Below are positions 2,922 through 14,206 of a stretch of 44,147 nucleotides of DNA, piece by piece (the first letter of the stretch is position 1; every line of letters begins with the position of its first letter). The notes beneath the pieces were generated by a model. That model worked only from the letters and a program-made list of their open reading frames with translations. It did not search any database and was not told the DNA's origin. Both the position numbers and the translations under genes were made by a program. The stretch spans positions 1 through 44,147 of the forward strand of contig JAGCRH010000033.1 in assembly GCA_017964785.1 (NCBI GenBank), given 5' to 3'. Source of the DNA: Prevotella sp. GTDB taxonomy: Bacteria > Bacteroidota > Bacteroidia > Bacteroidales > Bacteroidaceae.

Positions 2922-3698
2922 TTATTTACACATAATCCCTCGTGACTTCTCGAGGAACTGGATGATGGTCTGTATCTCGGGACCGTCGGGCACCTGTTCC
3001 TTGATCTGGTTGACGACATCAAACACACTCGTCTTTCCATGGAACAGCAGACGGTAGGCATTGGCGATGTGCTTCTGCACCTTCTCGTCGATACCTGCCT
3101 CGTGCATCATCGTGTTGTTAGGCCCACCGTATTCGAGGGGTTTACCGCCGGCAATGACGAAGGGTGGGATGTCCTGTGAGAACGAGGTGCCGGCCTGAAT
3201 CATTGCCAGGCGTCCCACACGGGTGTTGGCGTTCTGGATGGCCGAGCTGGAAAAGATGACACCATTGTGGATCTCGCAGTCGCCCGCAACCTTCACACCA
3301 TAGCCAAACACGCAGTGGTCGCCCACCACCGTGTCGTGACTGATATGCACGCCTTCCAAGAGGAAGTTGTTGTTACCGATCTTCGTCACGCCATCGCGAT
3401 GGGTACCACGGTTGATGACCACATTCTCGCGGATGACATTGTTGTCGCCAATCTGTACATACGACTTCTCACCACGGAAGTTGAAGTCCTGTGGCAGGGC
3501 GGCAATGACAGAGCCCTGGTGGATCTTGTTGCTCTTTCCGATGCGCGAGCCGTCGCAGATGCTGACGAAGGGGAAGATGATACAGTTGTCACCGATCTCC
3601 ACATCGTCCTCGATATATACGAAGGGGAATATCTTACAGTTGTTGCCGATCTTCGCCTTTGGGCTGATCTCGGCTTTGGAACTTATTTCACTTGCCAT
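2922..3698 (-). CDS. lpxA: LpxA-family acyl-ACP UDP-N-acetylglucosamine O-acyltransferase
   Basis: This 258-residue protein is built from left-handed beta-helix hexapeptide repeats (for example KIGNNC, EIGDNC, QIGDNN, KIGNNN). The family transfers a hydroxyacyl chain to UDP-GlcNAc in the first step of lipid A synthesis in the cytoplasm. The segment HISHDTVVGDHC holds the histidine that matches the LpxA catalytic His, and IRENVVINRGTHRDG matches the conserved substrate loop. The C-terminal helical part (HIANAYRLLFHGKTSVFDVV) is also LpxA-like. It starts 12 nt after the efflux channel gene and ends one base before the phosphatase start. The usual lpxA partners (lpxC/fabZ, lpxD, lpxB) are not next to it, so it may be a second, specialised copy; that is inference. 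Confidence 0.85.
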   Translation of the reverse strand: MASEISSKAEISPKAKIGNNCKIFPFVYIEDDVEIGDNCIIFPFVSICDGSRIGKSNKIHQGSVIAALPQDFNFRGEKSYVQIGDNNVIRENVVINRGTHRDGVTKIGNNNFLLEGVHISHDTVVGDHCVFGYGVKVAGDCEIHNGVIFSSSAIQNANTRVGRLAMIQAGTSFSQDIPPFVIAGGKPLEYGGPNNTMMHEAGIDEKVQKHIANAYRLLFHGKTSVFDVVNQIKEQVPDGPEIQTIIQFLEKSRGIMCK

Positions 3699-8370: not shown

Positions 8371-9543
8371 TTACTTCATGGCATCCACGATGTCGCCGGC
8401 ACTCATGGCCTTGGCCTGCTCCTGAATCTTCTGCTGGTAGCGCTCCGGTGTGATGGGAACGATCTCCATACCGTCCGTCAGTTTCGTGATACCGTTGGTC
8501 ACATATTTGTCGCCCACCTTCAGGCCGTCGGTCACGATGTAGTTGTTACCGTCGGTCTGCGGATCCACCTGGATCTCGGTGTACTTGACCTTATTATCCG
8601 TGCCTAAGGTGTAGACGAACTTCTTGTTCTGAATCTCCGACACACAACTCTGCGGAATGACGATGGCGGCCGAGTTGCTCTTCGGGATGATGATCGAACC
8701 GGAGCCACCGCTCTTCAATATGCGCTCAGGGTTGGGGAACACGGCGATGACCTGAATCGAACCCGTCGCAGGATCGATCACACCACTCATCTTCGTCACC
8801 TTACCCTCGTGGCCGTAGATGGAACCGTCGGCCAACTGCAACTGCACGTTCGGCATGGCACCCATGGCGGCCTTCTGACCACCCTCTGCCTGTGACATCA
8901 TCAGCGCGTCCTTCTCCGTCAACGAGAAATACACCTCCATCGACGAGTTGTTCGACACCGTGGTCAGCACCGAAGCCGTATTCACCAGCGCACCCTTCTT
9001 GAAGGGCAGCGTACCAACGACACCGGCAGCGGGACTCTTCACATAGCAGAAACTCAGCATCTCCTTAGCCGAAGCCAGAGAGGCCTCTGCCTGTGACAGA
9101 CCGGCCTTGGCCTGCTCATACTGGTTGGTGGCCGACTGCAACTCGAAGTCGCCGATGACCTTGCTCTCAAACAGTTTCTGGGCATTCTCATACGAGAGTT
9201 TGGCCGTATTACAGGAGGCCTGGGCCGTATTCACCGAAGCCTGGGCCTGACGCACCTGAGCCTGATAGGTCACGTTGTCAACCACGAAGAGCACCTGTCC
9301 GGCACCCACCGACTGACCTTCCTTCACGTTGATCTGAGTGATGAATCCCTGTACCTTCGGTGATATCTGCACATCCTGCACACCCTTGATGGTTGCCGGA
9401 TAAGTGGTCTGCATCTGGGTACTCGACGTACCGACGGTCACCACCGGATACTCGTTGTCGCCGAATGTCGGACGACCACCGCCACCACTGCACGATGCCA
9501 TCAGCATCGCACCGGCAGCAAACATTAAAATCTTCTTTTTCAT
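8371..9543 (-). CDS. RND efflux periplasmic adaptor (membrane fusion) lipoprotein
   Basis: This 390-residue adaptor links the inner membrane pump to the outer membrane channel. The N-terminus MKKKILMFAAGAMLMASC is a lipoprotein signal with cysteine at residue 18. The lipoyl-like halves flank a coiled-coil hairpin rich in Ala, Gln and Ser (about 90-160, with AQVRQAQASVNTAQASC), followed by beta-barrel and membrane-proximal domains (EVYFSLTEKDALMM, then QVDPQTDGNNYIVTDGLKVG). The ATG at 9543 is preferred because a longer opening would begin upstream of the promoter at 9590-9597. It is the first gene of the operon, with a palindrome at its promoter that may be an operator. Confidence 0.93.
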   Translation of the reverse strand: MKKKILMFAAGAMLMASCSGGGGRPTFGDNEYPVVTVGTSSTQMQTTYPATIKGVQDVQISPKVQGFITQINVKEGQSVGAGQVLFVVDNVTYQAQVRQAQASVNTAQASCNTAKLSYENAQKLFESKVIGDFELQSATNQYEQAKAGLSQAEASLASAKEMLSFCYVKSPAAGVVGTLPFKKGALVNTASVLTTVSNNSSMEVYFSLTEKDALMMSQAEGGQKAAMGAMPNVQLQLADGSIYGHEGKVTKMSGVIDPATGSIQVIAVFPNPERILKSGGSGSIIIPKSNSAAIVIPQSCVSEIQNKKFVYTLGTDNKVKYTEIQVDPQTDGNNYIVTDGLKVGDKYVTNGITKLTDGMEIVPITPERYQQKIQEQAKAMSAGDIVDAMK

Positions 9544-9589
9544 ACTGAATCTATTGTTATTACTGATATTTCTAACGGCTATCAAAGTG

Positions 9590-9597
9590 CAAAGGTA
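9590..9597 (-). promoter_or_regulatory. Promoter -7 box of the RND efflux operon
   Basis: On the minus strand TTTTTGTACCTTTGCA contains the consensus TACCTTTG box, 46 nt before the adaptor ATG. A perfect palindrome lies 5 nt upstream, where the -33 element is expected. Confidence 0.7.
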
Positions 9598-9602
9598 CAA
9601 AA

Positions 9603-9621
9603 ATATATCTAATAGATATAT
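9603..9621. promoter_or_regulatory. Candidate operator: 8-bp inverted repeat at the efflux promoter
   Basis: ATATATCT and AGATATAT form a perfect 8+8 inverted repeat with a 3-nt AAT spacer. It covers the expected -33 position of the efflux promoter, in the 93-nt gap between the ABC transporter stop and the adaptor start. The placement fits a dimeric repressor or activator, but no regulator gene lies next to it. Its A+T-rich sequence makes chance occurrence possible. Confidence 0.45.
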
Positions 9622-9636
9622 CTCCGCCAAAAGTTT

Positions 9637-11226
9637 TTAACAAAGTTTCACCACCTCGTCGCACTGTTCAGTGACGGCAGGACGGTGGGTGATGAAGAGC
9701 ATCGTCTTCTGCGGATAGGCGGCAAAGAGCCGACGGTAGAGTTCCTCCTCGGTGGGACCATCGAGTGAACTGCTGATCTCGTCGAGCAAGAGGACATTCC
9801 CCGGACGTAGCAGTCCGCGGGCAATGGCGATACGCTGGGCCTGTCCCTCACTGAGTCCGCTGCCCCGCTCACCGAGTTCGGTATCAATGCCCTGCGGCAG
9901 ATCATCCACGAAGTCGGCACAGGCCACATGCAGCACCTTCTTCAGTTCCTCGTCGGTGGTCTCTGGCTTTGCCAGTTGCAGGTTGTAACGGATGGTCCCT
10001 GACATCAGCGTGTTCCCCTGCGGCACAAAGCACAGTCCCCCACCCGTTGTCACACGGCCTTCTGTCGGCTCGATAAAGCCGAGGATCAGTCGGAACAGCG
10101 TGGTCTTGCCGATGCCCGTCTCGCCCATGATGGCGGTCTTCGACCCTGCCTTAAACGTATGCGTGAAATGACTCAGTATCGCCCGGTCGCCCTTGGCATA
10201 ACTGAACGACACATCCTCGAATGTAACACAGGGGGACGGTTCTTTTGTGTCAGACGACGCTGACACAAAAGAACCGTCCCCCTGTGTTACCAACTCCTCC
10301 AGTCTGTCGATACTCGCCGTGGCATGGATCACCCCCGGCACCATATTCAACAGTTGCAAGATCGGACTCTGGATCATGCCCACCAACTGCAGGAACGATG
10401 TCATCACACCAAAGGTGATCGCCCCGGCCCGCAGTTGCAGTCCGCCCCAGACGAACGCCAACAGATACCCCAATCCGAAAGCCAGTCCGAGAGCCAGTCG
10501 TGTCACTACCGTAAACCGTGTGCGCCGCCGCACATTCCCCGTCAGCCGCTGTTGCATCGTGTCGAGCCGTCCCGTCACCCACTGTTCCGAGCCCAGTGAG
10601 CGCAACACGGCGTTGTGCTCCATGCCCTCCTGTATCTGCATCTGTATACGACTCTCGTCCTGTCGGATGTCGTGTGTCATCTGGCGCAGACGGCGCGCTA
10701 CGAGTTTGCCGAAGACGACGGCCATCGGTGTCAGCAACAGCAGTGCCCACGCCAAGCGCGCGTCAAACCACCGCATGAGGAGGAAGGCGCCGAAGAGTTG
10801 TATCGTGGTGATGACCATCTGCGGCAGCGTGTCGTTCACGATCCCGCTCACGGTCTCGATGTCTTTCGCCAGTCGTGAGGTCACGTCGCCCGAGTGCAGT
10901 TCCTGTTCGGTGAAGAGTTGTCGGCGGAACAGACTACTGAAGATACGCAGTCGGAGTGTGTTCGTCTGTCGGATGCCCGCCATCGTGGTCATGTAGAAAT
11001 AGAGTTGTCGCAGGGCCACGCCGCCCACGACGGTCAGCACCAGCCAACAGACCATCCTGATCACCTCGTCGGTCTCGCCGGTACGGATGGTCTCGTCGAT
11101 GAACAGGCGACTGAGCCATACCATCAGCAGACCGAGCGCCACCTGAGCGATGCCCGTCACGATGCGCACCGCCATGTTCCAGCGGATGCCCCGTGTGTTA
11201 TGCCACAACCACGCTACGTATTTCAC
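9637..11226 (-). CDS. ABC exporter (fused permease and ATPase) of the PqqD/HprK-like operon
   Basis: This 529-residue half-transporter has an exporter-type membrane domain (about 20-310, six TM helices) and a nucleotide-binding domain (about 345-529). The Walker A motif is GETGIGKTT, the signature is LSEGQ, Walker B is VLLLDE and the switch His is in FITHR, so the ATPase looks active. It has no N-terminal C39 peptidase domain. The start is a GTG at 11226 whose GTGA overlaps the stop of the peptidase-like gene. The linker between the two domains contains about 23 residues (TQGDGSFVSASSDTKEPSPC) encoded by a perfect 31-bp inverted repeat, apparently an in-frame insertion. Context suggests export of a peptide product of this operon; that is inference. 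Confidence 0.87.
   Translation of the reverse strand: MKYVAWLWHNTRGIRWNMAVRIVTGIAQVALGLLMVWLSRLFIDETIRTGETDEVIRMVCWLVLTVVGGVALRQLYFYMTTMAGIRQTNTLRLRIFSSLFRRQLFTEQELHSGDVTSRLAKDIETVSGIVNDTLPQMVITTIQLFGAFLLMRWFDARLAWALLLLTPMAVVFGKLVARRLRQMTHDIRQDESRIQMQIQEGMEHNAVLRSLGSEQWVTGRLDTMQQRLTGNVRRRTRFTVVTRLALGLAFGLGYLLAFVWGGLQLRAGAITFGVMTSFLQLVGMIQSPILQLLNMVPGVIHATASIDRLEELVTQGDGSFVSASSDTKEPSPCVTFEDVSFSYAKGDRAILSHFTHTFKAGSKTAIMGETGIGKTTLFRLILGFIEPTEGRVTTGGGLCFVPQGNTLMSGTIRYNLQLAKPETTDEELKKVLHVACADFVDDLPQGIDTELGERGSGLSEGQAQRIAIARGLLRPGNVLLLDEISSSLDGPTEEELYRRLFAAYPQKTMLFITHRPAVTEQCDEVVKLC
10223..10290. repeat. REP-like palindrome inserted in frame in the ABC transporter gene
   Basis: Two perfect 31-nt arms (10223-10253 and 10260-10290) are separated by a 6-nt loop. 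The arms begin GTAACACAGGGGGACGG and contain TTCTTTTGTGTCAG. The element falls in the linker between the membrane and ATPase domains and keeps the frame open. A degenerate relative lies in the neighbouring kinase gene (12366-12436) and a third element with similar ends lies upstream of the operon. Confidence 0.85.
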
Positions 11227-11660
11227 CTTTTCACCCTTCGATATATCGCTAACAGATACCTTCTTACCGGTCGCAGATACCACCAGAGCCGTGCCGCCAC
11301 GCGCCGCCAGCGACAGTAGAGGTCGTGGGGCCGTTCGTCGGCACCGATGACGTGTGTCACCTTCGCCTTGATGTCTTGGAGCGTACAGTGCTCCGTACCG
11401 CTCAGGTTCCCGTCGCCCATCAGCGTCACCGCATCGCCCTCGATGGCGATGATGCGGTGCACCACATAGCGACAGCCATTGACCCATGCCAGTACCACGT
11501 CACCGTTTTCCGACTGCGCAGGCTTTTGCAGGATCACGCTTTCCTTCCCGCCGATGATAAACGGCAACATACTGTGCCCGTTTACCGGCAGCGTCACGCA
11601 GAGCCCCTCGCCCACCAGCCGTACTGCCTCCTCTATAATCGTATCGTCACTTACCTCCAC
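11223..11660 (-). CDS. S24/S26 signal-peptidase-like protein with ER-type Ser/His/Asp motifs
   Basis: This 145-residue protein has the signal peptidase I fold signatures: Ser30 in GHSMLPF, His68 in RYVVHRII and Asp83 in LMGDGN. Bacterial enzymes usually have Lys at the second place. His there, followed by a GD(N)N-type motif, is the pattern of the archaeal, eukaryotic and SipW-type group. There is no N-terminal TM helix; the C-terminus is very basic and aromatic (RWRRVAARLWWYLRPVRRY) and may bind membrane. It sits between the HPr-kinase-like and exporter genes, with a GTGA overlap to the exporter, so it may trim the exported product. It could instead be a non-catalytic relative. Confidence 0.75.
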   Translation of the reverse strand: MEVSDDTIIEEAVRLVGEGLCVTLPVNGHSMLPFIIGGKESVILQKPAQSENGDVVLAWVNGCRYVVHRIIAIEGDAVTLMGDGNLSGTEHCTLQDIKAKVTHVIGADERPHDLYCRWRRVAARLWWYLRPVRRYLLAIYRRVKR

Positions 11661-11688
11661 TTTTCACTATTAACTATTCACTATTCAC
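11661..11688. repeat. 7-bp tandem repeat at the kinase/peptidase gene junction
   Basis: Four heptads (TTTTCAC, TATTAAC, TATTCAC, TATTCAC) cover the 13-nt gap before the peptidase-like gene and the last codons of the kinase-like gene, giving its C-terminal VNSE. The same heptad type appears at 15275-15302, 17356-17376 and, as ATTTCTC, at 87-107. Confidence 0.75.
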
Positions 11689-12528
11689 TGTTTTCCGGCA
11701 CAGTCTCGCCGCTTCTTCGTCGGGCAGACACTCCAAGTGCCACACCGGCACGTTCGTCACCAGCGCGTTCTCCGTCTGGTGCAGTCCGTCGGCAATGCGA
11801 CTGTTCCACCGCTGACCGCTGATGCTCGCCACGAGCGCCGTATACGCCTCGATGCCGCCCAGTCGCCGTATCTGATTGTAGGGCGCCTGACTCAGCAGCA
11901 CGATCCCGCCCAACGGATAACTCACGTTCCGGTAGCAGGGTGTCTTCCCGCTCCACGGCGAGCCGTACACCACCCCGTCTCTCACCACAGGATTGTCGTC
12001 GTTCACCAGTTCCGTGCCCTCGATATGTTCCAGCCATAATTGCGCGTGCGTGCTCTTGCCCGTGCCGCTCTTGCCGAGGAACATATAGCCCTGACCCTCG
12101 TGGCTCACCACCGCTGCATGAAACAGCGCCGTCCCCAGTCTTGCCGTCGCCATCGCAAAGAGCAGCATCAGCGCGTTGTCGATGGCCATCTTCGAATGTT
12201 TGCCCGACGTGAGGAGCCATCCCAGACGATAATCCGTCGCACACACTAGCCATCCCACCGTCTCACCGCACCAGCCGAACTGATACACCGGCTGTCCGTC
12301 GGCATTCCTGCCACAAACGATGGTCTGCTCCTCATCTTCCTGCCGCATCTCCTCCGTGAAAATGATACGGGAGGGCTTTTCTTTTGTGACATCGATTTCA
12401 AGCGATGTCACAAAACAATCGTCCTCCTGCGTTGCAAACGGCTTATAGTTCTTCATCTGCGTGAAGACCTTTGCCTCGCCACTGACACTGAACAGATGTC
12501 CCGCCACCCGATAATATCTCGTTATCAT
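11674..12528 (-). CDS. HPr kinase/phosphorylase-like P-loop protein
   Basis: This 284-residue protein has a C-terminal domain like that of HPr kinase/phosphorylase. The Walker A motif is GKSGTGKST (152-160), followed by NDDNP (176-180) and GSPWSGKTPCYRN, which fit the nucleotide- and metal-binding loops of that fold. The N-terminal about 130 residues are beta-rich and not recognised. True HprK regulates sugar uptake through HPr, but the PqqD-like and exporter neighbours instead recall kinase-like accessory proteins in peptide-maturation clusters. Residues about 33-57 (TQEDDCFVTS...KEKPS) come from a hairpin element resembling the one in the exporter gene. The target of phosphorylation, if any, is unknown. 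Confidence 0.8.
   Translation of the reverse strand: MITRYYRVAGHLFSVSGEAKVFTQMKNYKPFATQEDDCFVTSLEIDVTKEKPSRIIFTEEMRQEDEEQTIVCGRNADGQPVYQFGWCGETVGWLVCATDYRLGWLLTSGKHSKMAIDNALMLLFAMATARLGTALFHAAVVSHEGQGYMFLGKSGTGKSTHAQLWLEHIEGTELVNDDNPVVRDGVVYGSPWSGKTPCYRNVSYPLGGIVLLSQAPYNQIRRLGGIEAYTALVASISGQRWNSRIADGLHQTENALVTNVPVWHLECLPDEEAARLCRKTVNSE
12366..12436. repeat. REP-like hairpin inside the HprK-like gene
   Basis: A perfect 13-bp stem (12382-12394 with 12403-12415, 8-nt loop) extends imperfectly outwards to ends resembling AACGCAGGAGGACG. It encodes TQEDDCFVTS followed by TKEKPS, matching the TQGDGSFVSA and TKEPS encoded by the palindrome in the exporter gene, so both probably derive from one element family. 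Confidence 0.7.
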
Positions 12529-12546
12529 CGTCTATCTCATGGAGGG

Positions 12547-12813
12547 TTAGATAACACCGACACGCTGCCAGTCGTCGAGGATGGCAGCCACGTCGGAACG
12601 GGCCTCGTCGGGGGTCACGTCATATTCTTCACAGAGGCGCTTTACAAGGTCTTCTTCGGTAAAGAAGCCCATCTTCTGGGCCTGTTTCCACAGCCAGGCC
12701 GCACTCTCATTCAGGGCGAGCAGTTTGCCAAAATTGATGGCCTGAAGTCCCTCGCCCACAATCACATTCTCGCCGCACACCTCGCGCAGCACAAATCCAT
12801 CTTTTATTTTCAT
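12547..12813 (-). CDS. PqqD-family peptide-binding protein (RRE-like)
   Basis: This 88-residue protein fits the PqqD family throughout: an N-terminal beta segment (MKIKDGFVLREVCGENVIVG), the core AINFGKLLALNESAAWLWKQ, and a C-terminal helical part ending DWQRVGVI. PqqD domains bind the leader of a precursor peptide and present it to modifying enzymes. It is the first gene of the operon, 18 nt after a consensus promoter and 18 nt before the HprK-like gene. No precursor peptide gene is visible next to it. Some PqqD-like proteins pair with HprK-like kinases in other bacteria, which supports a shared pathway. Confidence 0.82.
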   Translation of the reverse strand: MKIKDGFVLREVCGENVIVGEGLQAINFGKLLALNESAAWLWKQAQKMGFFTEEDLVKRLCEEYDVTPDEARSDVAAILDDWQRVGVI

Positions 12814-12830
12814 AATCGTCTATTGGTCTG

Positions 12831-12838
12831 CAAAGGTA
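12831..12838 (-). promoter_or_regulatory. Promoter -7 box of the PqqD/HprK/peptidase/ABC operon
   Basis: On the minus strand a T-rich stretch and GTACCTTTGCA contain the TACCTTTG box, 17 nt before the PqqD-like ATG. A terminator-like hairpin (12849-12873) ends just upstream and a 21-bp repeat array lies beyond it. Confidence 0.7.
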
Positions 12839-12848
12839 CGAATAAAAA

Positions 12849-12873
12849 TCGGGCTGACCAAACGTCAGCCCGA
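12849..12873 (-). terminator. Rho-independent terminator upstream of the PqqD operon
   Basis: TCGGGCTGAC and GTCAGCCCGA form a perfect 10-bp stem with a 5-nt loop, followed on the minus strand by TTTTTATT. It would stop transcripts entering from the acyltransferase gene. It overlaps the expected -33 region of the PqqD promoter, so an operator role is also possible. Confidence 0.7.
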
Positions 12874-12883
12874 CTATTTTCAA

Positions 12884-12988
12884 ATAAGCGTACCTTATTA
12901 CGAAATAAGGCAGGGTTATTGAGCGATAAGGCAGGGTTATTGAGCGATAAGGCAGGGTTATTGCTGAATAAGGGCAGGTTATTACACA
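12884..12988. repeat. 21-bp tandem repeat array upstream of the PqqD operon
   Basis: Five units start at 12884, 12905, 12926, 12947 and 12968. The three central ones are near-identical (ATAAGGCAGGGTTATTGAGC); the outer two are degenerate. Each holds an AATAA/TTATT inverted pair, and the 21-bp period equals about two DNA turns. No spacers are present, so this is not a CRISPR array. Confidence 0.75.
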
Positions 12989-13013
12989 GATATACAGAGG
13001 GACGTTTCTGGTC

Positions 13014-13104
13014 GGTCATCATGCTGTAGAATGCCATGCTAAGCCCCCTATACATGCAGCGGGCATGTATACAGGGGGCTGCTTAGTATGGCAGCATGAT
13101 GACC
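13014..13104. repeat. Long imperfect hairpin downstream of the acyltransferase gene
   Basis: Arms of about 42-44 nt (13014-13057 and 13063-13104) pair around a 5-nt loop. Both arms start GGTCATCATGCTG and both end in a CCCCCT...ATACATGC block. Imperfect similarity continues outward to ends resembling ACAGGGGAC, as in the palindromes inside the exporter and kinase genes. It begins 26 nt after the acyltransferase stop and may also act as a terminator. Confidence 0.75.
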
Positions 13105-13129
13105 ATCACGCGGCTGTCCCCTGTGTGTT

Positions 13130-14206
13130 TCAGAGTTTGATGTAGATCTTCTTGCGGTAGAGGATGTAGCCGATGGCGAAGTTGAGGAGGACGAAATAGA
13201 GGGCGTAGGCCAGGGAGGCCCACTTGTCGGGCGGGATGACAGCATGGATGCCGTTGTAGACCCATTCGGAGACACCGATATTACCCAAAATGATCGCAAG
13301 GAGTTCACTCGACACATAAAGGGCGAGGGCATTGACGCCAAACACGTGGAAGAAAGTCGTCCAGCCTGACTTCTTCTGAATATCAATGACATACATCAGA
13401 AAGGCCTGCAACAACGAGGCGAGGCCACAGGTGGCGAGGACGTAACTGGGACTCCAGATGCGCTTGTTGAGCGGCAGACCGTAAGAGAGCAGATAGCCGC
13501 CGATGACGAGTACCGTACCTACGACGAAGAGGGCGATGACCTTATCAGAAACGATTTCTTTCTGACGGATGAGCATACCACAGTAAAAACCGAGCAGCAC
13601 ATGGGCCACGGAAGAGATCGTACCCAACAAGCCCTCGGGATCGACGGGACTCTTATGGTAAATATGGTCGTAGCCGAACAGGCGGAGGTCTGCCTGAGCC
13701 AAGATGTTCACGTTGGCATCCTGCACGTAGCCGTTGCCGAAAACAAGGATAGCGGCGTAGACCACCAACAATCCGATGATGACAGGTATCGTGCACTTAT
13801 GGTTGCAGAAGAGGGCGAAGAGCGAGACGATGCCATAGCAGAGGGCGATGCGCTGGAGAACGGCCCAAATGCGGAGATGGCCGAAACAGAGCAGGTCGCC
13901 CTCGATGGCGTGGTCGAACCAGTTGATAAAGAGTCCGATGGCAAAGAGCAACACGGTACGTTTGATGATACGGCGGATGACTGGCGGCGTGGGCTTGAAT
14001 TCCGACTTCACCAAGGAGAGATAGCAAGAGATACCCATGATGAAGAGGAAGAAAGGGAAGACAAGGTCGCAGGGGGTCATGCCGTTCCATTTGGAATGAC
14101 CGAGCATCTCGAAGGACTCGCCCCAACCGTTGTTGACGAGGATCATACCGGCAACGGTGATGCCGCGGAGGATATCGAGACTTAAAAGACGATTGGACTG
14201 TTTCAT
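13130..14206 (-). CDS. HGSNAT/NagX-like membrane acyltransferase (DUF5009-type)
   Basis: This 358-residue polytopic membrane protein has about ten TM helices. The N-terminus RLLSLDILRGITVAGMILVN and the following FPFFLFIMGIS are the signature of the heparan-alpha-glucosaminide N-acetyltransferase family, which moves an acetyl group across the membrane onto a terminal amino sugar. His77 lies far from the N-terminal motif, so I do not assign a catalytic residue. The ATG overlaps the end of the upstream GH89 remnant in an ATGA, showing that the two were translated together. A long hairpin lies just downstream. The substrate is inferred from the family and neighbour only. Confidence 0.8.
   Translation of the reverse strand: MKQSNRLLSLDILRGITVAGMILVNNGWGESFEMLGHSKWNGMTPCDLVFPFFLFIMGISCYLSLVKSEFKPTPPVIRRIIKRTVLLFAIGLFINWFDHAIEGDLLCFGHLRIWAVLQRIALCYGIVSLFALFCNHKCTIPVIIGLLVVYAAILVFGNGYVQDANVNILAQADLRLFGYDHIYHKSPVDPEGLLGTISSVAHVLLGFYCGMLIRQKEIVSDKVIALFVVGTVLVIGGYLLSYGLPLNKRIWSPSYVLATCGLASLLQAFLMYVIDIQKKSGWTTFFHVFGVNALALYVSSELLAIILGNIGVSEWVYNGIHAVIPPDKWASLAYALYFVLLNFAIGYILYRKKIYIKL

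Follow-up and report, generated by a model that had tools for sequence, protein, structure and literature searches.

Rickettsia palindromic elements (RPEs; Ogata 2000, 2002, as cited in PMC3733652, PMC10969869 and PMC6649704) have been known since 2000. PMC3733652 describes repeats of this type as ending in CGTC, and CGTC repeats as apparently having no dedicated transposase; PMC6649704 describes the arms of RPEs as losing identity over time. TIRtrons, which combine TIRYT transposases with terminal inverted repeat (TIR) sequences, were described in PMC3733652 and are equated in PMC6006769 with subclass 2.1, or group 1, of the REP-associated tyrosine transposases (RAYTs; REP, repetitive extragenic palindrome). 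Here we analyze a palindrome with two perfect 31-bp arms in Prevotella sp. (GenBank assembly GCA_017964785.1, contig JAGCRH010000033.1). The contig, 44,147 nucleotides in full and referred to below as the window, is contig C122 of genome G000, an assembly of 2.88 Mb in 147 contigs that is 81% complete. The palindrome lies in frame within a protein gene, as RPEs do, and its arms recur at the two ends of a transposase gene, as TIRtron repeats do.

We consider it very likely that the palindrome is a non-autonomous mini-element in which two TIRs of a RAYT/TIRYT-type Y1 transposase are joined tail to tail, and whose surviving copies are those in frame. The palindrome is a dispersed repeat family, the one RAYT gene found in the genome is bounded by this repeat as perfect TIRs, in-frame copies lie in conserved genes whose orthologues are free of them, and the frames in which copies are read are skewed. 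The RAYT would recognise an arm, the ends of which can pair into a small hairpin, and pairs of arms would move, or would once have moved, through the RAYT as a small hairpin DNA unit. Insertion would be blind to genes, and copies that shift the frame, add a stop or strike a structured part of a protein would be lost. The survivors would be those in variable loops, mostly in one frame (TQ-R/G-DGSFV ... TKEPS) that we judge to be the most hydrophilic. Such in-frame loop copies would persist and be inherited, as sites shared across species suggest, with selection acting as a filter.

A dispersed family and a transposase with the same ends

The features of the window that bear on this proposal are as follows.

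10223..10290, no strand: palindromic element in which the end repeat of the transposase stands twice in opposite orientation, with 31-bp perfect arms and a 6-nt loop
10223..10253, + strand: left arm, GTAACACAGGGGGACGGTTCTTTTGTGTCAG, whose core recurs in the 26-bp TIRs on either side of the RAYT gene
10260..10290, - strand: right arm, the exact reverse complement of the left arm
9640..11487, - strand: first host gene, ABC exporter (ABC_membrane and ABC_tran)
12362..12435, no strand: degenerate copy with 82% complementary 28-nt arms at 12370-12397 and 12400-12427, covariance model E=2.9e-6
11677..12528, - strand: second host gene, HprK-like protein, with the degenerate copy at amino acids (aa) 31-55

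The arms in the exporter gene, 31 nt each, 100% complementary and 6 nt apart, are far beyond what shuffled sequence produces. A 22-nt arm core, with up to three mismatches, was found in the window only in these two arms and in none of 100 shuffles, and the 68-nt element folds as DNA at -38.5 kcal/mol compared with a shuffle mean of -8.3, a value that 0 of 200 shuffles equalled. A sequence-only reading of the window had picked out this repeat and a degenerate relative in the HprK-like gene, and had likened the two to the in-frame palindromic elements of Rickettsia. Much of that reading was borne out: both elements are in frame, the peptides are exactly those it gave (TQGDGSFVS and TKEPS in the exporter, TQEDDCFVTS and TKEKPS in the HprK-like protein), copies occur in frame within unrelated protein genes as in Rickettsia, and the REP-associated transposase and insert-free orthologues that it had proposed looking for were both found. 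The degenerate copy is related to the family at the DNA level (covariance model E=2.9e-6 over the whole genome, with rough calibration), and the first-element arm matches it at 75% over 28 nt; its standing as an insertion is weaker, as discussed below.

One Y1_Tnp gene was found in genome G000 (contig C34, locus L050, 3742-4524), encoding a RAYT of 260 aa with the motifs NHVH and YIHQNP and a Pfam Y1_Tnp match over cut-off. Flanking the gene are GTAACAGAGGGACGGTTCTTTTGTTA on one side and the exactly reverse-complementary sequence on the other, perfect 26-bp arms in inverted orientation at 3647-3672 and 4570-4595 of L050 that are 897 bp apart. Since the arms of the palindrome match these flanks, the palindromes appear to be two end repeats joined tail to tail. 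Two further single arms lie 0.9-1.5 kb upstream of the gene. The upstream region also contains degenerate repeats of about 42 bp (L050 2339-2690).

Genome G031 carries three repeat families with RAYTs of their own. A second in-frame family (GTCACATTGGGGTCAGGATACTTTGTGACAT..., peptide VTLGSGYFVTS...DVTKYPDPNVT) occurs in G031 and G090, with hosts such as HisH, MnmA and MetH, and one G031 RAYT has the repeat of this family at its ends. A third family (CTGACAGGGGACAGGTACCTGTCAG) flanks another G031 RAYT and is also found inside the G031 exporter. These two RAYTs are 57% and 47% identical to the G000 RAYT; the remaining G031 RAYT, truncated by a contig start and followed directly by palindromes of the window's family (family 1), is 74% identical to it. 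The RAYTs have in common a C-terminal stretch resembling GASIRQIERLTGI, and no Pfam model for a helix-turn-helix, the C-terminal domain of subclass 2.1, was significant in them. A RAYT profile recovered relatives with arms within 1.5 kb at 7 of 116 loci among the matches listed, in Bacteroidota, Bacillus and other Bacillota including Lachnospiraceae. At locus L245 (G031, contig C38), palindromes at 761-834 and 1735-1808 with mutually inverted loops flank a 304-aa open reading frame (ORF) directly behind a RAYT gene, an arrangement that may be a composite unit.

The family is dispersed through the genome of the window. A 25-nt arm pattern gave nine forward and nine reverse matches with up to three mismatches, compared with none for the reversed control pattern, and the 68-nt element gave 32 BLAST matches with both strands counted. 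A covariance model built from 23 copies was run over 14 genomes, and the counts take in the related families that it also caught. Among the matches listed, 54 places in six genomes were examined; unlisted matches (three in G000, four in G031, two each in G018, G090 and G099) and weak listed ones (G090 C58, C40, C38 and C32, G099 C25:8319) were left out, and single arms such as that on C142 were not counted as copies. In frame within an ORF were 41 of the 54, while 11 were not and 2 were unverifiable owing to N in the sequence. By genome, the in-frame copies numbered 16 of 18 in G000 (the exceptions being on C50 and C48), 13 of 18 in G031 (one at a contig edge), 4 of 4 in G018, 6 of 7 in G090, 2 of 6 in G099, which also holds the 2 unverifiable copies, and 0 of 1 in G051. 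G018 and G031 belong to Prevotella, the genus of the window, and the exact two-arm pattern was present in 6 of 200 genomes sampled from that genus. A related palindrome family (AATCAGGGGGACAGGTTTTTGAATGAATTC and variants; L274-L280) was seen in genome G032; of the 16 copies examined there, none falls within an ORF of 200 aa or more.

Host proteins, orthologues and reading frames

Of the 16 in-frame sites in G000, 15 are covered by Pfam matches over cut-off. The hosts are the ABC exporter, MTHFS, a Trans_reg_C protein, an ECF sigma factor, ObgE, a HAD-IB phosphatase, an acyltransferase, MntP, a fucokinase/pyrophosphorylase, RsmF, RsmD, LacZ and a ZntA-like P-type ATPase, which carries two inserts; a BT4734-like protein is a further host, its insert being of another repeat type. 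Only sub-cut-off Pfam matches were obtained for the HprK-like protein and three other ORFs (GH-like in G018 and G031, M56-like in G090).

The comparison with orthologues is clearest for ObgE, an essential GTPase in other bacteria. The protein was found in 20 of 20 genomes; the 19 relatives are 82-95% identical to it and none of them has the family element. In 15 of the 19 the loop is a 5-residue sequence resembling L-PQDL-P, compared with 24 residues in G000, and the net gain of 20 aa corresponds to the 60 bp from ACAG to CTGT. The insert lies just before the FISAVTG stretch, which we take to be the G5 motif. In the other four relatives this position is occupied by longer loops of unrelated sequence (G099 L342, G051 L347, G034 L349, G006 L358), and the G051 loop is itself palindromic (CCCCCGAGGGGG...CCCCCTCGGGGG). 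For the ZntA-like ATPase, neither insert was found in 25 other genomes (26 places), several of which have longer unrelated segments there, and both inserts are gaps relative to the solved ZntA structure 4umv.

MntP carries the insert in three genomes (G000, G031 and G090) and lacks it in the five other genomes with the gene (5 of 8 empty). G013, counted as empty, has a shorter loop (EQRSSFVT) that could be a remnant of the element. The asymmetric loop of the G090 copy (L290) seems to run the opposite way from that in G000 and G031, as recombination between the arms of the palindrome could have brought about. RsmF matched in 15 genomes and was aligned in nine; it has the insert in G000 and G018 and lacks it in the other seven. 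In the G000 copy, an element end is duplicated in frame relative to G018 (TCCCTCTGTTACAC twice, near 1062 of L047). The insert-free RsmF of G025 has heptamer repeats at the insert site. Sites shared by two or three genomes were also found in MnmA and a PseudoU synthase.

The two host genes in the window behave differently from ObgE. The exporter ORF matches PF00664 and PF00005, both over cut-off, and the linker that joins these domains (aa 399-421) is encoded by the element. This linker is 24 aa long, compared with 22-32 aa in 28 measured orthologues (a net gain of about 0-2 aa), and since its length is near normal, the element appears to have replaced a native linker. The exporter copy is thus a genuine family element in frame, as the sequence-only reading had it, but a replacement rather than an addition. 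At the same linker G031 carries the other-family palindrome and G025 a half copy of family 1. Most exporter orthologues align only from about aa 69-91 of ORF 9640-11487, and the true start codon is uncertain. The HprK-like ORF matches Hpr_kinase_C just weakly, at E=0.0062, which is below cut-off. Because the native segment in seven informative relatives is just 2-5 residues or so shorter, the copy is doubtful as a protein insertion.

Other repeats were noted around these genes. Tandem 21-bp repeats (TTATTGAGCGATAAGGCAGGG and variants) at 12895-12978 of the window adjoin the HprK-like gene cluster, and a larger imperfect intergenic palindrome at about 12985-13130, with ends of like flavour (ACAGAGGGACG ... 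CTGTCCCCTGTGTG), is perhaps another TIR family or a decayed element. Heptamer-like repeats (ACTATTC, TTTCATC, CTATCAA) are found at a gene end at 11659-11690; in relatives (L193, L196, L302) such repeats occupy the exporter linker and the RsmF loop, the sites of the palindromes.

The location of copies within genes was compared with a null model in which real elements were placed at random within the same loci. All 13 exact-arm copies of G000 lie in ORFs of at least 200 aa, compared with 1740 of 4000 simulated insertions (43.5%, p=2e-5). Across loci, at least 147 exact copies were pooled. With a threshold of 150 aa or more, the G000 count is again 13 of 13, and other Bacteroidota loci whose elements have no TGGGAC stem, mostly Prevotella by title or genus, gave 20 of 25 among the matches listed. 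A stricter context test that demanded 300 open bases on each side was dropped as too harsh for sites near gene ends; among the matches listed it put 20 of 147 copies in frame (6 of 13 in G000), 4 open on both sides but unjoined (three from Bacillota or others and one G099 copy with N), 109 in neither class and 14 at a locus edge.

At 18 of 26 host sites the left arm is in the DGSF frame, and at 21 of 26 the right arm is in the TKEPS frame; these counts were tabulated by hand with shared sites counted once, and exclude copies that contain N, those of other families and the one in the HprK-like gene. This frame bias fits selection after insertion. The further suggestion of the sequence-only reading, that the element is tuned to be tolerated within proteins, is not supported by the stop codons of the copies. 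The 13 exact copies leave 3.15 of six frames open, close to the 3.02 of random 68-bp windows in the same loci. The TGGGAC-stem family leaves 4.9 frames open yet has just 3 of 20 copies in ORFs, and the second, in-frame genic family leaves only 2-3 frames open.

The two arms of a copy resemble each other more than they resemble other copies. In G000, agreement within copies compared with that between copies is 92% versus 59% over the inner six bases and 88% versus 64% over the outer ten. Between orthologous copies (six pairs), we counted 8 mirrored differences, 7 one-arm differences and 1 other, with two pairs showing no mirrored change. Because differences between orthologous copies are often mirrored, the arms would seem to be kept alike after insertion, probably by fold-back template switching, which has been proposed for other coding palindromes (PMC6649704). 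The arm ends can also pair with each other around a conserved GGGACGGTTCTTT, with a mean stem of 4.9 bp in 290 arms compared with 3.3 for swapped halves; single arms fold no better than many shuffles.

Weighing the explanations

Several observations tell against the proposal of a RAYT-borne element that is filtered by selection. The G000 RAYT matches the NCBIfam model REP_Tyr_transpos at E=6.5e-18 and yet stays below its cut-off (65 versus 80 bits). A family-1 RAYT was found in two of the six genomes with family-1 copies (G000 and G031), and none was seen in G018, G090, G099 and G051, whose assemblies are 61-90% complete; the RAYTs of those four have other ends, no recognised ends or, in G051, are of a short kind. 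Y1_Tnp matches occurred in 14 of 16 genomes searched, and because these include genomes with and without copies, their presence says little. Covariation in the 23-copy alignment exceeds the shuffled level (11 pairs with double changes; 72 double-change cells in the long helix versus 22.8 when shuffled), but its outer columns are bounded by the palindrome itself and hence biased. Within-arm stems in G000 are short, 3-5 bp in nearly all copies, and outer bases that are copy-specific yet palindromic (GTGTA/TACAC, GTGAT/ATCAC, GTCTC/GAGAC) are not accounted for. Such ends suggested a palindromic or duplicated target site; such a site is at most a possible origin, as the sites viewed in relatives show no such palindromes and a duplication was unreadable.

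The evidence on frame and location has limits of the same sort. The length from ACAG to CTGT modulo 3 (0/1/2) is distributed 12/20/1 in 33 ORF copies and 40/27/34 in 101 copies from two groups that lie largely outside genes (p=2e-4). One of these groups, TGGGAC, shows a similar skew when taken by itself (8/11/1), making the test weak and non-specific, and we rejected it as evidence that the frame is selected. Elsewhere, elements that share this core lie mostly outside ORFs of at least 150 aa: among the matches listed, those within such ORFs number 12 of 81 in Bacillota and others, 3 of 20 of the TGGGAC type and 3 of 8 in one bin. Mechanism alone therefore fails to explain the genic location. 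Finally, the net gain varies from about 0-2 aa in the exporter and 2-5 in the HprK-like protein to 13-14 or more in MntP and RsmF and 20-21 in ObgE and the ZntA-like ATPase. The exchange between element and native loop differed in degree between hosts, which our proposal does not fully explain.

The palindromes could instead owe their spread to another mover, either a lost transposase or recombination, with the RAYT a bystander hit by repeats. That the RAYT drives the movement is something we infer, two single arms also lie upstream of its gene, and besides the four genomes in which no family-1 RAYT was seen, G032 has 16 examined copies of a related family and no Y1_Tnp match at E<=0.001. Such an origin is nevertheless unlikely given the perfect 26-bp inverted pair that frames the G000 RAYT, the three G031 families that each flank or adjoin their own diverged RAYT, and the arms near RAYT relatives as distant as Bacillus and Lachnospiraceae.

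It is improbable that the inserts were selected as useful peptides, or as RNA or DNA hairpins that regulate their hosts. The hosts are functionally unrelated and have close orthologues free of inserts, an Rfam search of window positions 9500-13500 gave zero matches, and one frame is preferred but others are present; the strong hairpin speaks for such selection, as do the insertion sites that two or three genomes share (MntP, RsmF, MnmA, PseudoU synthase).

We give very little credence to an ancestral protein segment that is palindromic in DNA by chance. The same 60-70 bp of DNA recurs in unrelated genes and twice in one ATPase, its arms covary at the DNA level, and the orthologues of ObgE, the ZntA-like ATPase, MntP and RsmF have unrelated or shorter loops. 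For these four proteins an ancestral segment with divergent DNA, the finding that the sequence-only reading had named as fatal to its own view, is ruled out. The explanation draws what strength it has from the near-normal length of the exporter linker and from the native segment of nearly equal length in HprK-like relatives, and for most of the HprK-like segment it could hold. An artefact of metagenome assembly is scarcely credible, as the same sites appear with diverged sequence in separate assemblies (RsmF in G000 and G018; MntP in G000, G031 and G090), for all that the G000 assembly is fragmented and two G099 copies contain N.

Returning to the mini-element, we tentatively suggest a wider role for its insertion sites, one we hold possible rather than likely. 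In this clade of Prevotella, variable protein loops may be an open landing ground for several transposase-linked palindrome families and simple repeats that replace the native loop in frame. With arms copied by fold-back, such mobile loops might be continually rewritten, in essential proteins too, and insertion or fold-back replacement itself, besides selection, may favor keeping the frame.

Comparison with described systems

As the TIRtron is described in PMC3733652, the G000 system resembles it in having a Y1 transposase with HuH (NHVH) and Y---NP (YIHQNP) motifs, a long C-terminal tail and flanks that are TIRs instead of GTAG REPs, and in repeating these TIRs elsewhere in the genome, also as dimers. 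The TIRtron motif GGGGWSAS is fitted by two other families here (GGGGTCAG and GGGGACAG; G031/G090), whereas family 1 differs from it by one base, reading GGGGACGG or AGGGACGG with G in place of A as the seventh base. Most copies here are intragenic, unlike the REPs of that account, which are mostly intergenic, and its text on TIR repeats names none from Bacteroidota. By the motif table of PMC6006769, the only basis of this comparison, the RAYT (260 aa) has the FQ and the length of subclass 2.1. It also resembles the Bacteroidetes subclass 2.6 of the same source, which shares its phylum, fits NH[LIV]H and YIH[QN]NP and has flanking structures repeated genome-wide; those proteins are shorter (179 aa in the table), the structures are termed 'atypical', and in-frame copies are not mentioned in that description. 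The palindrome is built like the REPINs of PMC3116915, from two inverted REP-like units around a short variable spacer, and its genome likewise encodes a RAYT. REPINs are described as extragenic and abundant, unlike the roughly 18 copies here, of which 16 of 18 examined lie in ORFs and whose arms match TIRs.

Like the Rickettsia elements, the copies are palindromic, lie in frame in unrelated protein genes and encode a recurring peptide. They differ from RPEs as described in having a matching transposase in the genome, in the many arm differences that are mirrored, and in their ends: the arms start with GTAAC and end in GTCAG, with CGTC only inside the arm. In Opitutus terrae and others, PMC3733652 reports intragenic GTAG/CGTC REPs, in-frame dimers of 20-30 aa that sometimes occur twice per gene, as here; these belong to another repeat class and are mostly intergenic in that account. 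The coding palindromes of Nematomorpha mitochondria (PMC6649704) likewise have genic arms that evolve in concert, with template switching proposed, but are described as not dispersed and as coding conserved native protein. Among the open-licence papers listed, none was found to describe in-frame copies in Prevotella or elsewhere in Bacteroidota, and a search with the letters of the arm core returned nothing related among the papers listed.

The element codes about 20 extra or exchanged amino acids in intact-looking genes of some Prevotella with the frame kept, and even ObgE, essential elsewhere, carries a 20-residue insert of mobile origin, as we read it, before FISAVTG. An element and a transposase with the same ends in one genome, together with a Prevotella relative whose three families each lie at or next to a transposase gene of their own, make it possible to test directly the spread of mobile DNA through protein-coding genes and its consequences for the proteins. 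Genic REPs, TIRtrons, Bacteroidetes RAYTs with repeated flanks and the Rickettsia elements were already described; what is new is a mostly in-frame case in Bacteroidota with a matching transposase. On the features tested, the element is TIRYT- or REPIN-like in its anatomy and Rickettsia-like in its behavior, and may not be a full member of any of these groups.

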